This document shows, in pieces, positions 5,116 to 30,181 of a DNA stretch of 36,905 nucleotides. Position 1 is the first letter of the stretch. The number at the start of each line of letters is the position of its first letter. The notes beneath the pieces are model-generated. The model was not told the origin of the DNA. It saw nothing but the letters and a program-made list of their open reading frames with translations, and made no database searches. Location: contig JACQWO010000030.1 of NCBI GenBank assembly GCA_016209225.1, forward strand, positions 1-36,905, written 5' to 3'. This DNA comes from Desulfobacterales bacterium (lineage in GTDB: Bacteria > Desulfobacterota > UBA8473). The position numbers and the translations under genes are program-made.

Positions 5116-5275
5116 CCTTTAAACATCTCGCCATGGCGACAAAAGTTTATCTCGCCCGCTTCCTCTGGTCGCTCGAGCACACAGAGAATCACTGAGATAA
5201 TCACGCTGTTTCTCTGTGAACTCTGTGTGAGATGAAAAAGCTTTAAACACCTCGCCACGGTGACAAAATTTTGTA
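5116..5275. repeat. Solo GxxExxY-associated repeat (minus orientation) inside a short direct repeat
   Basis: The core at 5150-5231, read on the minus strand, matches the element before the GxxExxY gene (23277-23361): CTCACACAGAGTTCACAGAG, then the GATTATCTCAGTGATTCTCT block and an ending like GAGCGACC...GCGGGCGAGA. Here there is no GxxExxY gene. The core is flanked by an imperfect direct repeat of about 30 bp (CTTTAAACATCTCGCCATGG at 5116 and CTTTAAACACCTCGCCACGG at 5241). Small open frames here just read through the repeat. Confidence 0.8.
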
Positions 5276-23267: not shown

Positions 23268-23276
23268 ATTTTTTAT

Positions 23277-23361
23277 CTCACACAGAGTTCACAGAGAAAC
23301 AGAGTGATTATCTCAGTGATTCTCTGTGTGCTCGAGCGACCGAAGGGAGCGGGCGAGAGAA
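23277..23361 (+). repeat. GxxExxY-associated repeat, upstream copy
   Basis: Begins CTCACACAGAGTTCACAGAG and continues to GCGGGCGAGAGAA. Its last 57 bases (23305-23361) are repeated with one mismatch after the GxxExxY gene (23844-23900). An additional half copy, CATCTCACACAGAGTTCACA and four more bases, lies at 23405-23428. Open frames here only read through the repeat. Confidence 0.9.
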
Positions 23362-24540: not shown

Positions 24541-24587
24541 AGAAGTCAGAAGTCAGAAGTTAGAGAAGGGAGTTGGGGTCTGACCCC
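24541..24587. repeat. Heptamer array plus GGGGTCTGACCCC palindrome
   Basis: AGAAGTC, AGAAGTC, AGAAGTT at 24541-24561 directly after the fimT stop, then the palindrome at 24575-24587. The same types of repeat flank other genes in this cluster. Confidence 0.8.
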
Positions 24588-24623
24588 GAATCCGCAACGG
24601 TAAAAAAAATAAGGGGGTTAACT

Positions 24624-24830
24624 ATGTTAAATACATTATGGGCAATTGTCCACGGGGAAAAAATCGAACTTTTAGAAAAGATTGACATCCCTGAAGGGAC
24701 TAAGGTATTGGTAACTATACTTCCCAAAGAACATGAACCACAATTTTGGTTAAAAACAAGTCAAATATCTTTGGATAAAGTTTGGAATAACACAGAGGAT
24801 GAAGTATATGCAAAACTACTCAAAGAATGA
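24624..24830 (+). CDS. Probable antitoxin of a MazF/PemK-type module
   Basis: 68 aa from ATG 24624, which has AAGGGGG upstream; a longer frame from 24573 would translate the palindrome and is unlikely. The N-terminal LNTLWAIVHGEKIELLEKID and IPEGTKVLVTILPKE resembles short antitoxins with a SpoVT/AbrB-like or DUF104-like strand. The C-terminal half (FWLKTSQISLDKVWNNTEDE) would wrap the toxin. It overlaps the toxin gene, typical of type II pairs. Confidence 0.75.
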   Translation: MLNTLWAIVHGEKIELLEKIDIPEGTKVLVTILPKEHEPQFWLKTSQISLDKVWNNTEDEVYAKLLKE

Positions 24831-25149
24831 TGTAATATTAGTCCGTTATCCCTTTTCAGACCTATCAACTTCTAAAGTTAGACCAGCGGTCATCATCAAT
24901 GCTCTCCATATTTCTGAAGATATTTTTATCGTGCCATTAACTAGCAAAACAACCTCTCTTTTACCTGGTGAATTTGTTCTGGAAGACTGGAGAGGTGGAG
25001 GGCTTAATGTAATTACAGCGGTAAAACGTGGAATTTATACTATAAACAAGACCCTCATTATAAAAAGGATTGGACAACTCTCAACTTTTGATTCAAAAAG
25101 GTTAGAGAGTTCTCTGCATGAATGGCTAGGATTTAAATCGTATATATAA
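24808..25149 (+). CDS. MazF/PemK-like toxin (mRNA interferase family)
   Basis: 113 aa. MazF fold motifs are NDVILVRYPFSDLSTSKVRP, AVIINA, FIVPLTSKTT and a C-terminal TINKTLIIKRIGQLS. Family members are ribosome-independent endoribonucleases. ATG 24808 has AGAGG nine bases upstream; ATG 24799 has no room for a ribosome binding site. It overlaps the antitoxin and ends 17 bp before pilV, so the pair is lodged inside the minor pilin operon. Confidence 0.85.
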   Translation: MQNYSKNDVILVRYPFSDLSTSKVRPAVIINALHISEDIFIVPLTSKTTSLLPGEFVLEDWRGGGLNVITAVKRGIYTINKTLIIKRIGQLSTFDSKRLESSLHEWLGFKSYI

Positions 25150-26553: not shown

Positions 26554-28128
26554 ATGAATAGAATCCCGATATTTTTGAAAGACGAAAAGGGTATAGCGCT
26601 GGTTGTAGCCCTTTTGTTTTTGACGCTCCTATCACTCCTTGGGATTGCAGGGATCATCACATCTACTACGGATACAAAGATAGCAGGCAACACCCTTTCC
26701 AGCACAAAGGCCTTTTATATTGCTGAGGCCGGGTTAGCAAGGGCTGAGGCAGAGCTTATCAATGATTTGAGTACAGATCAGAATATCGCCAACTCTAGTT
26801 TTACAGCAACATCAGGCGACATAACCATAACACCCAGTTCCACTGCCTTTTACACTGTATTCAGTAACATTTCATTCGGCGCAGGCTCCTATACTATCCA
26901 GTTTAAGAACTACGGGACTGCACCCAATTATGAATCCGCAATTGTCCTTGTCAGATCCACAGGAACAGGCCCGAACTCATCTACCATAACCCTTGAAAGA
27001 TACCTTTCGGCTGAGAATATCTCACCATGGAACAATGCAATATTTGCTGGTGGAGGCGGAGGCGCTGCACCTATCACAGGAAACGTTATTATAGCAGGCT
27101 CCATTCACTTACTGGGCAACGGTCTCGCTGCTACGGATACGGTTTTCAACAACCAGACAGGTGACTGCCGAAACAGCAATACAGGTATGGATGCAACACT
27201 CGCAGGCAAGATTGCCGGCGGTACCACCTCTGATCTGAATGCAAAATTCAGGGTCAAAAACGGGCGAGCTGATATGACGCTGGGAAGTGGAACGATAGGA
27301 ACATCGGCAAGTCCGTTTAAGGGGATATATGTGACGACAGGAACAGATGCAGGTAGCGATGGTGTGAATGACGATATACTCGGCGGGGATAATTCAGGGG
27401 CAGGTCAGAACCTTTATGCTGACAAAGGTGCGAATTCTGCAGAGGCGTATGACCTGGGGGATTATAACATAACATTGCCGAGCATTGATACGACCTGGAT
27501 GGATGCCCACTCAAAAAACTTAACAGGGACAAACCAATATGTAGGTCCGGCTGGAAATCAAAAGGGCCTGATAGCCGGTGCGTTGGAGTTGACAGGAGAC
27601 TATAAAGTGACAGGGACCGATTATTATCCCAACATCGAACAATATGATGGGGTTGATTGGGCGTCCTCCACTAACGGCATCCGTTATAATTCGGTCACAA
27701 ATGTGCTTGAGATAAAGGGGATAGTCAAGGTAACATCCCTAAATATAAGTGACGATATAACATACGCTGGAAAAGGGACTATATACGTGACAGGGACAAC
27801 CAATATTGATGGTAATGTCCTGCCTGCAACAGCAGCATCCTATCCAACCACCAATGTTCTGGGTGTTGTGAGTACCGGGAATATGGCTCTGCCCTCAAGT
27901 TCTCAGAAGCTATTAACCGGTGCTTTCTATAGCGCTGGTACAGTTACCAGCAGTAAACAGAACGAATTGGCCGGGACAATCGTCTGTCAAAATTTTAACA
28001 TAACAGCACAGGTCCCCAAGATATGGCAAGTCCCCTCATTGGCGACCAATCTCCCTCCGGGAATGCCTGGCTCCACTCCGGTCTGGGTTTTTACTGAAAA
28101 GACATGGCGGGAGATAACTCAGGATTAG
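26554..28128 (+). CDS. pilX: Pilus assembly PilX-like protein with long beta-rich C-terminal region
   Basis: 524 aa, much longer than classical PilX (about 200). The N-terminus KGIALVVALLFLTLLSLLGI plus TKIAGNTLSSTKAFYIAEAG is the PilX_N domain; it has no Gly-Phe prepilin site of the PilA kind. The rest is repetitive and Gly/Ser/Thr-rich (GNVIIAGSIHLLGN, GALELTGDYKVTG, GTIYVTGTTNIDGN), consistent with a beta-helix. Final gene of the set. No pilY1 tip adhesin follows; an unrelated accessory gene does. Confidence 0.85.
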   Translation: MNRIPIFLKDEKGIALVVALLFLTLLSLLGIAGIITSTTDTKIAGNTLSSTKAFYIAEAGLARAEAELINDLSTDQNIANSSFTATSGDITITPSSTAFYTVFSNISFGAGSYTIQFKNYGTAPNYESAIVLVRSTGTGPNSSTITLERYLSAENISPWNNAIFAGGGGGAAPITGNVIIAGSIHLLGNGLAATDTVFNNQTGDCRNSNTGMDATLAGKIAGGTTSDLNAKFRVKNGRADMTLGSGTIGTSASPFKGIYVTTGTDAGSDGVNDDILGGDNSGAGQNLYADKGANSAEAYDLGDYNITLPSIDTTWMDAHSKNLTGTNQYVGPAGNQKGLIAGALELTGDYKVTGTDYYPNIEQYDGVDWASSTNGIRYNSVTNVLEIKGIVKVTSLNISDDITYAGKGTIYVTGTTNIDGNVLPATAASYPTTNVLGVVSTGNMALPSSSQKLLTGAFYSAGTVTSSKQNELAGTIVCQNFNITAQVPKIWQVPSLATNLPPGMPGSTPVWVFTEKTWREITQD

Positions 28129-28168
28129 TAATTGTTGCCGAACCCTTTTTATCAGCACAAGGTAAACC

Positions 28169-28732
28169 ATGTGGAACTATCGAGTTGTACGGAAAAGGAA
28201 TGTGTACATTGATCCCAGAGATCAGAGAGAAAGAGTAGATTACACCTATGCCATACATGAGGCATACTACGACAAGAACGGACATGTCGGAGCCATCACC
28301 CAATATCCAGTGGAGCCCTTTGGAGAGAATATAGAAGAGCTACGGCATTCATGGATAATGATGGCAGAGGCATTCGGCCAACCAATCCTGGACTACGATA
28401 ACATTCCTGAGCAGGGATACGATAGAAAAGAAGATCCCATCGGATCTGTACTTGATGAAAGGCTCGAAGAGTTCGAAGCCGGCAATAAGATAGGAGTTCC
28501 TTGGGAGCACGTAAAAAGGGAGCTGGAAGAAAAATGGGGACCATTTGACCATGAAGGTTACAGAAAACGGATAGAAGAAGAGAGAGTAGAGAAGGAAAGT
28601 ATCCACAATGAGGCCTTTATTGACACACCGATCTTGAAGGATCTGATCAATAAAATGCACTCCGACTACGAGCAAAGTATTGAACGAGATCGAACTGAGA
28701 ACCCTTGGAAATACTCAGCAGAGGATGCCTAA
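28169..28732 (+). CDS. Cassette gene of unknown function
   Basis: 187 aa, soluble, charged. MWNYRVVRKRNVYI, YTYAIHEAYYDKNGHVGAIT and VEPFGENIEELRHSW resemble a small uncharacterised family in environmental bacteria that I know only as hypothetical proteins. The C-terminal half is acidic and helical (RKRIEEERVEKESIHNE). The stop codon TAA lies inside GCCTAAC, the outer box of an attC-like site, as is typical for integron cassette genes. RBS-like AAGG is 8 bases before ATG 28169. Function unknown. Confidence 0.7.
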   Translation: MWNYRVVRKRNVYIDPRDQRERVDYTYAIHEAYYDKNGHVGAITQYPVEPFGENIEELRHSWIMMAEAFGQPILDYDNIPEQGYDRKEDPIGSVLDERLEEFEAGNKIGVPWEHVKRELEEKWGPFDHEGYRKRIEEERVEKESIHNEAFIDTPILKDLINKMHSDYEQSIERDRTENPWKYSAEDA

Positions 28733-28819
28733 CCACAGGGTCAACCGAACGCGCGAAACACGGGGGTTGGCATTTCCTGTAGTCCCTTGGCCGCGCGCCG
28801 GTTCCCCTCAACGTTAGAC
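28727..28819 (+). other. attC-like integron recombination site (93 bp)
   Basis: Outer boxes GCCTAAC (28727-28733, fits RYYYAAC) and GTTAGAC (28813-28819, fits GTTRRRY) enclose a second pair, AACCGAACGCGCG (28743-28755) and CGCGCGCCGGTT (28792-28803). The two pairs are complementary, with an unpaired base in the first, and equal 9-base gaps separate the boxes on each side. The preceding stop codon lies in the first box. No integron integrase, attI or second attC was found in this window, so it is an orphan site or a fragment of a cassette array. Spacers are longer than the common 5-7 bases. Confidence 0.72.
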
Positions 28820-28848
28820 TCCAATAAGTTGATAATTAAAGGATGACT

Positions 28849-28899
28849 ATGTTCAAACGAATTTTGAAACGTATGCGAGAAAAAGTTCGCAGGCGATAA
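28849..28899 (+). pseudogene. N-terminal fragment of the DUF4258 gene, cut off by an in-frame stop
   Basis: ATG 28849 (AAAGGATG upstream) encodes MFKRILKRMREKVRRR and then TAA at 28897-28899. The frame is continuous with the downstream DUF4258 gene: after the TAA come Tyr, Val and the Met at 28906. Homologues have this helix fused to the HARKEM core, so the gene was probably one piece of 93 codons before a single nonsense change. Confidence 0.65.
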
Positions 28900-28905
28900 T
28901 ATGTA

Positions 28906-29130
28906 ATGACGTTTCATGCAAGAAAAGAGATGAATGACGATGGATTGACCATTTATGATGTTGAACGTGGTATTGTTACTGGGGAGATATTAGAACGTCA
29001 GCAAGATAAAGTGACCGCTGAATGGAAATACCGTATCAGAGGAGAAATAGTTGAGGGCGATAAAATTGAAATAATTGCGAAGCTAAGTCCAACCAATAAA
29101 CTCGTCATTATTACCGTATATGCACTATGA
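28906..29130 (+). CDS. DUF4258 protein (RelE/MqsR-like toxin candidate), N-terminally shortened
   Basis: 74 aa: TFHARKEMNDDGLTIYDVER, GIVTGEILERQQDKVTAEWK, YRIRG and KLSPTNKLVIITVYAL, a DUF4258 core. Family members pair with YgiT-type zinc-finger proteins, and here one follows directly. Translation could restart at ATG 28906 after the stop at 28897, but no good ribosome binding site precedes it and the first helix would be missing. It may be inactive. Downstream of an attC-like site, as TA cassettes often are. Confidence 0.75.
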   Translation: MTFHARKEMNDDGLTIYDVERGIVTGEILERQQDKVTAEWKYRIRGEIVEGDKIEIIAKLSPTNKLVIITVYAL

Positions 29131-29147
29131 AGAGAGGAGGGGATCAG

Positions 29148-29375
29148 ATGATATGTGATATTTGCGGGCAAGAGGGTGTTCGTATCCGTAGAGTTGCCGA
29201 AACCTACGGCAAGGGCAAAGATTTGATGGTGATAGAAAATATCCCGATGGTGAGTTGCGCTCGTTGTGGAGAGAGCTATTTTACAGCAGAAACACTTCAC
29301 GAAATTGAACGTATCAGACTCCATCACAAGAACTTTGCTATCGAACGCCTTGTAGAAGTTGCCAGTTTTGCATAA
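29148..29375 (+). CDS. YgiT-type zinc-finger antitoxin-like protein
   Basis: 75 aa from ATG 29148, preceded by GAGGAGGGG; ATG 29127 lacks such a site. Two CxxC pairs (CDICGQEG and CARCGESYF) form the zinc-binding N-terminal domain like that of MqsA. The C-terminal LHEIERIRLHHKNFAIERLV is a helical tail without an obvious HTH. Partner of the DUF4258 gene. It should autoregulate the pair only if a DNA-binding domain is supplied elsewhere. Confidence 0.8.
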   Translation: MICDICGQEGVRIRRVAETYGKGKDLMVIENIPMVSCARCGESYFTAETLHEIERIRLHHKNFAIERLVEVASFA

Positions 29376-29391
29376 TTAAGGGAATTATTTA

Positions 29392-29480
29392 CCTCGCCCG
29401 CTCCCTTTGCTCGCTTGAGTCACAGAGGTATCAGAGATGATTTTTAAGTAACTCTGCCTCTCTGTGAACTCTGTGAGAGA
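29392..29480 (-). repeat. Divergent GxxExxY-associated repeat copy (no gene)
   Basis: Read on the minus strand it has CTCACAGAGTTCACAGAGA at one end and GCGAGCAAAGGGAGCGGGCG at the other, the two ends of the elements at 23277 and 5150. The middle has diverged. No GxxExxY gene is nearby. It separates the YgiT pair from the MntA/HepT pair. Confidence 0.75.
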
Positions 29481-29555
29481 TAAAGACCCCTGTTGAAATA
29501 TGAGGGTTAATATGCCATAATACCTGAAATGCCGAACCCCGCCAAGAGGTGAAAA

Positions 29556-29843
29556 ATGATAAATAGAGAAAAAATCTTTAAAAAGATTGCTCGGCTACTT
29601 AAAAATCAAGGGGCAAGAAAGATTGCTGTCTTTGGCTCTTATGTGAGAGGAGAAGAAAAACCAGGAAGTGATATAGATATTATCGTGGAGTTTTCTGAAA
29701 GAAAAAGTCTTCTTGAACTTGTGAGAATAGAAAGAGAGTTGTCTGAGTTCCTGGGAATAAAAGTGGATTTGTTGACGGAAAAATCTATAAGTCCCTATTT
29801 GATTGATACGATAAGGAAGGAGATGGAGGTAATTTACGGGTGA
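29556..29843 (+). CDS. mntA: MntA-type nucleotidyltransferase antitoxin
   Basis: 95 aa minimal nucleotidyltransferase. [21 protein letters not shown] has Gly27-Ser28 and Asp39/Asp41, the intact GS-x10-D-x-D catalytic motif. In the studied HepT-MntA pairs, MntA AMPylates a tyrosine of the HEPN toxin and silences it. The RBS AGAGGTGAAAA is upstream. GTG of the hepT gene overlaps its stop (GTGA), so the two are coupled. Confidence 0.92.
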
Positions 29844-30181
29844 AAAAAGATGATTCCGTGTATTTAAGGCACATTTTAGATGCCATATCCAGAATAGAGG
29901 AGTATACCCAGGGCATAAGTTGTAAAGACTTTATGGATAATCACCTTATACAGGACGGGGTAATAAGGCAGATCGAAATAATAGGCGAAGCTGCAAAGAG
30001 GTTATCCAATGAAATTAGGGAAAGACATTCTGAAATACCGTGGAAAGATATGGCGGGAATGAGAGACAAGTTGATACACGATTATTTGGGTGTAGACCTA
30101 GATGCCGTCTGGGATACGGTTGAAAAGGATATTCCTGCCTTGAAAAACAGATTGAGGGACTTTATTGAAAAACAAGATTAA
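29840..30181 (+). CDS. hepT: HepT-like HEPN RNase toxin (DUF86)
   Basis: 113 aa, all-helical HEPN protein. The catalytic motif R-x4-H-x-Y is RDKLIHDY (Arg75, His80, Tyr82), all residues intact, so both toxin and tyrosine target for AMPylation are present. GTG start at 29840 lies within the mntA stop. Probably an active type VII-like toxin-antitoxin unit. The gene's end overlaps the start of rfaE2. Confidence 0.92.

Follow-up and report, generated by a model that had tools for sequence, protein, structure and literature searches.

A probable two-cassette integron insertion between pilX and rfaE2 in a Desulfobacterales genome

We analyzed a 36,905-nucleotide stretch of DNA (the window), which is contig JACQWO010000030.1 of the Desulfobacterales bacterium assembly GCA_016209225.1 (C77 below) and in which a gene for a 187-aa protein and a DUF4258/YgiT gene pair lie between pilX, at the end of a pilin operon, and rfaE2. 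Positions 28129–29392 are probably what remains of two integron cassettes inserted outside an integron; on our best reading, an integron integrase (IntI) placed the two cassettes there, or they formed a small cluster of attC sites lacking an integrase (CALIN), and erosion followed. An IntI-mediated insertion at a chromosomal site, which we propose, would account for the attC site behind the first gene, the orientation of the cassettes, the empty site in two congeners, the fact that both genes are cassettes elsewhere, and the supply of integrases in the genome.

Results

The 187-aa gene ends in a very probable attC site of the long type

The initial annotation described an attC-like site behind the 187-aa gene, with outer boxes, a second complementary pair, and a stop codon inside a box, all of which direct reading finds in place (coordinates in Table 1). 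The R'' box GCCTAAC and the R' box GTTAGAC form seven pairs, one of them G.T, and fit the complementary consensus RYYYAAC/GTTRRRY; the TAA stop of the 187-aa reading frame (28730–28732) falls within R''. On the bottom strand, the predicted fold consists in order of the R stem, an unpaired spacer, an interrupted L stem, an inner stem rich in GC, and a long variable loop. The L stem is made of AGGG/CCCT (28805–28808 with 28737–28740) and AACCG/CGGTT (28799–28803 with 28743–28747), with G/GA unpaired between the two helices, and is followed by a CGCGCG/CGCGCG stem; pair probabilities are 0.87–1.0 for the L-stem and CGCGCG pairs and 0.88–0.93 for the inner five R pairs. The extrahelical bases in the L''/L' stem and the unpaired spacer expected of attC are thus both present on this strand. 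Crossover at G|TT would fall between 28813 and 28814, and TTAGAC would therefore belong to cassette 2.

To score the site, we used three covariance models: R1, based on 16 attC sites (class 1, cyanobacterial, and Desulfobacterota-type); R2, from 28 attC sites of the genus, mostly of a short type; and R3, from 14 long-type sites, with the window site excluded from both R1 and R3. The site is the top match in the window for R1 (20.1 bits; runner-up 9.4) and for R3 (20.5 bits; runner-up 10.0). The R1 score lies within the range of true class 1 attC sites held out from the model (IMP-1, 18.9; OXA-392, 21.8; arr-3, 23.1 bits), rather than far below it. Under R3, held-out class 1 sites score 13–46 bits, and matches in integron-free loci reach at most 13.1, except for one of 17.9 in L025, a place that R2 picks as well and where an attC site may therefore exist. 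The genus also has a long attC type of 84–95 bp, with which the window site has interior letters in common (against three of six long-type members, an equally good alignment is reached by 4 or 5 of 500 shuffles of the interior), and it is to this longer type, modeled by R3, rather than to the short type of R2, that the window site belongs. Searching the genome itself and plasmids directly for similar DNA gave no sister sites; attC sites resemble each other in structure and not in letters. An Rfam search gave no relevant family.

A separate scan for box consensus and arm pairing scores the site at 38.0 and 42.3 on the two strands, against 32–41.6 for most class 1 attC sites, with long-loop sites (IMP-1, arr-3) ranked lower by the method. 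Among 1,000 dinucleotide-shuffled windows, one reaches 38 and none reaches 40. Palindromic repeats in natural DNA attain comparable scores about once per 0.5 Mb, so the structure is suggestive but by itself no proof. We conclude that 28727–28819 is very probably a true integron attC site, predicted from its sequence to be able to recombine.

Both genes are cassettes in other genomes

Cassette 1 consists of one gene with attC immediately behind it. Its 18 relatives, which are 45%–95% identical, come from other metagenome-assembled genomes (MAGs) recorded as Deltaproteobacteria, Desulfobacterales, Nitrospirae, Anammoxibacter, and others. In three of them (L021, L022, and L023) a complete attC begins within the stop codon of the gene; in L018 attC lies at equal distance from a gene whose stop comes slightly earlier; and in L019 attC terminates exactly at the crossover G, after which unrelated DNA follows. 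Because the attC sequences of the relatives differ from that of the window, it is position, not letters, that is conserved. For a cassette to form a circle, its left end must pair with R''. The L019 cassette begins TTTAGGCATCGC and the L023 cassette GTTAAGCATCGC; these starts contain TTTAGGC/GTTAAGC boxes, and each pairs at six of seven positions with R'' GCCTAAC. The fetched flanks of the 18 loci contain no intI match. The 187-aa protein itself faintly resembles PF09720, an addiction-module component (below cut-off, E 0.012); its AlphaFold model is too poor for a fold search (pLDDT 57.7), and no relative was found in the PDB.

The initial annotation also noted that the DUF4258/YgiT pair starts in the manner of a second cassette. 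Its relatives, present in 12 other genomes within a 395-genome sample of the phylum, do occur in genuine cassettes: in a congener (L128) and in other genera they are bounded by G|TTATGT on the left and ACATAAC on the right, and these boxes pair at seven of seven positions in L127, L128, and L129 and at six of seven in L131 and L134. An attC lies directly upstream of the pair in L127, and another (26.4 bits) downstream of the YgiT gene in L135. The window copy correspondingly starts at G|TTAGAC, but the R1 scan finds no attC behind it after 29375, where the sequence passes into a 132-bp block; cassette 2 has lost its attC here.

The genome carries integrases and scattered attC sites

The site had been called an orphan, which holds for the contig: C77 has no match to the integron integrase model TIGR02249, and the window shows no trace of intI or attI. 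It does not hold for the genome, in which three integron integrases exceed the TIGR02249 cut-off, one complete (on C19, 392 bits) and two cut by contig ends (on C86 and C13), besides fragments; integron integrases and numerous attC sites are present in congeners too. Four attC sites adjoin the C19 intI in the usual divergent layout. On C63 (L015 1213–9337), a truncated intI has at least seven attC sites upstream, which makes this a decaying integron. Genome-wide, the R1 scan, which is not exhaustive, gives at least 18 attC sites at E<=0.01. They are spread over 12 contigs, of which nine or more have no integrase match. Among these sites are a lone attC (57.7 bits) at C44:64138–64197, flanked by genes for a methyltransferase and an aminotransferase, and two near housekeeping genes on C53. 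Matches to attC occur in 84 of 198 sampled genomes of the phylum, and integrons are therefore ordinary in it.

Two side observations concern these loci. The C19 integrase (L012 6813–8255; 480 aa) has an N-terminal extension of about 168 aa with a second, partial SAM-like domain match, and the C44 attC has a sequence very similar to those of aadA/catB8-type attC sites.

Congeners show an empty site

In two congeners (G002 and G004), the pilX stop codon is followed by 28 bp and then by rfaE2, with similarity to the window ending at 28128 and resuming at 30165. A near relative (L017), whose contig starts at the last bases of pilX, carries cassette 1, apparently at the same locus. After GCCTAACC, a truncated vapC and a gene resembling vapB take the place of its attC, and the 132-bp block and then rfaE2 follow. 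The two genes lie on the opposite strand (L017 604–965), vapC being truncated where cassette 1 ends. Several toxin–antitoxin pairs have thus come and gone at the pilX–rfaE2 locus.

Under the mechanism that we propose, IntI, encoded three times elsewhere in the genome, would recombine the folded bottom strand of the attC of each cassette with a chromosomal site just behind the pilX stop codon; alternatively, a short array may have moved in as one step. The orientation would let the promoter of the pilin operon read through the cassettes, and the attC of cassette 2 would have been deleted later. We infer IntI as the agent, the exact left crossover, and cotranscription with pilX from the sequence.

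Table 1. Features at and around the pilX–rfaE2 gap (window positions)
Feature	Positions	Strand	Remarks	Basis
Block absent from two congeners	28129..30164	+		blastn and reading of G002 (L066) and G004 (L067)
Cassette 1 gene	28169..28732	+	187 aa; no confident family	ORF reading; 18 relatives in other MAGs
attC site	28727..28819	+	93 bp; long type of the genus (84–95 bp)	Models R1 and R3; resemblance to long-type sites of congeners and own genome
R'' box	28727..28733	+	GCCTAAC; contains TAA stop of cassette 1	Direct reading; placed alike in L019, L021, L022, L023
L'' box	28737..28747	+	AGGG, unpaired TC, AACCG	Bottom-strand pair probabilities
L' box	28799..28808	+	CGGTT, unpaired C, CCCT	Bottom-strand pair probabilities
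R' box	28813..28819	+	GTTAGAC	Direct reading; relatives' cassettes stop exactly at matching G
Cassette 2	28814..29392	+	Own attC lost; right limit approximate	Relatives L127, L128, L129, L131, L134 between GTTATGT-like and ACATAAC boxes
DUF4258 protein	28906..29130	+	74 aa; probable toxin	PF14076, E 7.8e-14
YgiT/MqsA-type zinc-finger protein	29127..29375	+	82 aa; probable antitoxin	TIGR03831, 50.3 bits (cut-off 20.2)
132-bp non-coding block	29393..29524		99% common with L017 in same place; start of eroded right side	blastn
MNT nucleotidyltransferase/HepT pair	29556..30181	+	Absent from L017 and congeners	PF01909, PF01934

Neighboring features

The MNT/HepT pair is inserted ahead of rfaE2, the hepT stop codon lying inside the rfaE2 start; it shows no sign of cassette nature and is a later neighbor. 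Within the pilin operon, the window holds an AF2212-like/PemK toxin–antitoxin pair at 24573–25149; in G004 (L138) the operon flanks of this position are joined across a 5-bp gap, and in G002 (L137) a different insert occupies it. Diverged copies of a non-coding repeat of the CTCTGCCTCTCTGTGAACTCTGTGAG type lie at 29393–29485, 23272–23357, and 5146–5236, one of them within the block common to L017.

Discussion

The initial annotation left a choice between the remnant of an integron and an IntI-mediated insertion. Insertion outside an integron fits better, given the two congeners with an empty site. The annotation needs correcting on three points: the site is an orphan within the window alone, cassette 2 has no attC left, and the left junction holds no clean, readable crossover by IntI. 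Several observations weigh against our reading. The left junction, GGATTAG|TAATTG, retains the TTAG of the target, and the left end of cassette 1 in the window pairs with R'' at only four of seven positions, the TTAGGCATCGC start of its relatives being missing. A search of the window and L017 did not find the 28-bp target flank on the right side, and we therefore regard the right junction as remodeled; both outer junctions are thus altered, even though the empty site is known. In addition, the folding energy of the attC site is unexceptional (z = -0.94, with 37 of 200 shuffles folding equally well), the short-type model R2 fails to recognize it (12.3 bits, rank 2 in the window), and the site is missing from the list given by the genome-wide R1 scan.

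Because both outer junctions are altered, the main rival is that the cassettes arrived by illegitimate or homologous recombination with an array fragment, and not through IntI. The lack of a clear left crossover and the remodeled right side favor such a transfer, as do the toxin–antitoxin genes that come and go at this locus and elsewhere in the operon; we nevertheless consider it rather unlikely, since the relatives of cassette 1 occur in many unrelated contexts and end at the crossover G, as IntI insertion predicts. Less likely still is a complete sedentary chromosomal integron that once stood here and lost its integrase and most of its cassettes, leaving the tail. The genus does contain several integrase remnants, such as the truncated C63 intI with its seven attC sites, but insertion outside an integron is preferred over a decayed resident integron because pilX and rfaE2 are adjacent in two congeners; moreover, intI and attI leave no trace in the window, and no intI match lies near any of the 18 loci of cassette 1 relatives. 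Finally, a chance inverted repeat or transcription terminator in place of attC, as the ordinary folding energy and the low R2 score might suggest, is very improbable given that R1 and R3 both put the site first by a large gap, that its stop-bearing R'' sits where relatives carry attC, and that one shuffle in 1,000 matches its box-and-pair score. We discarded the idea of a terminator hairpin, there being no T run behind it.

Comparable arrangements are known. CALINs, defined in IntegronFinder as attC clusters without an integrase, include single-attC cases that can be true according to the authors (PMC9024848), and like the window locus they hold attC-bearing cassettes without an adjacent integrase. 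The window locus keeps one attC, under the IntegronFinder 2 default of two, and unlike a CALIN can be placed against an empty site. IntI is known to join attC, at low frequency, to secondary GNT sites (PMC3518468). According to two papers citing Loot et al. 2024 (PMC12444791, PMC11023631), experiments have shown that cassettes insert genome-wide at attG sites. Such insertions likewise put a cassette into the genome outside an integron and next to a possible promoter, whereas the window case is natural and fixed rather than experimental; an attG site is not demonstrated in the window because the left crossover is not readable. Lone dfrA14 and dfrA1 cassettes in sul2-strA-strB (PMC11213556) are also complete cassettes with attC outside an integron, but they are recent, plasmid-borne, and under drug selection, whereas the window carries an unknown gene and a toxin–antitoxin pair on the chromosome of an environmental MAG. 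Toxin–antitoxin pairs are known cargo of sedentary chromosomal integrons as well; cassette 2 differs in being of the DUF4258/YgiT type, in lying outside an array, and in having lost its attC. Single-attC CALINs and lone cassettes are thus already known (PMC9024848, PMC11213556), and the present analysis adds a chromosomal case that can be compared with an empty site and lies in a genome full of scattered attC sites, together with a toxin–antitoxin cassette family.

It is a tentative possibility that the genus regularly spreads cassettes across the chromosome behind housekeeping operons for expression, with scattered single cassettes, and not one array, as the main store; if so, the pilX–rfaE2 gap would represent one datable event. 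So far, laboratory work and resistance plasmids have supplied most demonstrations of cassette insertion outside integrons. A chromosomal case with empty-site congeners, IntI, and scattered attC sites would make the natural frequency of such insertion and its consequences measurable, and it lets DUF4258/YgiT be seen as a cassette-borne toxin–antitoxin family of predicted function.
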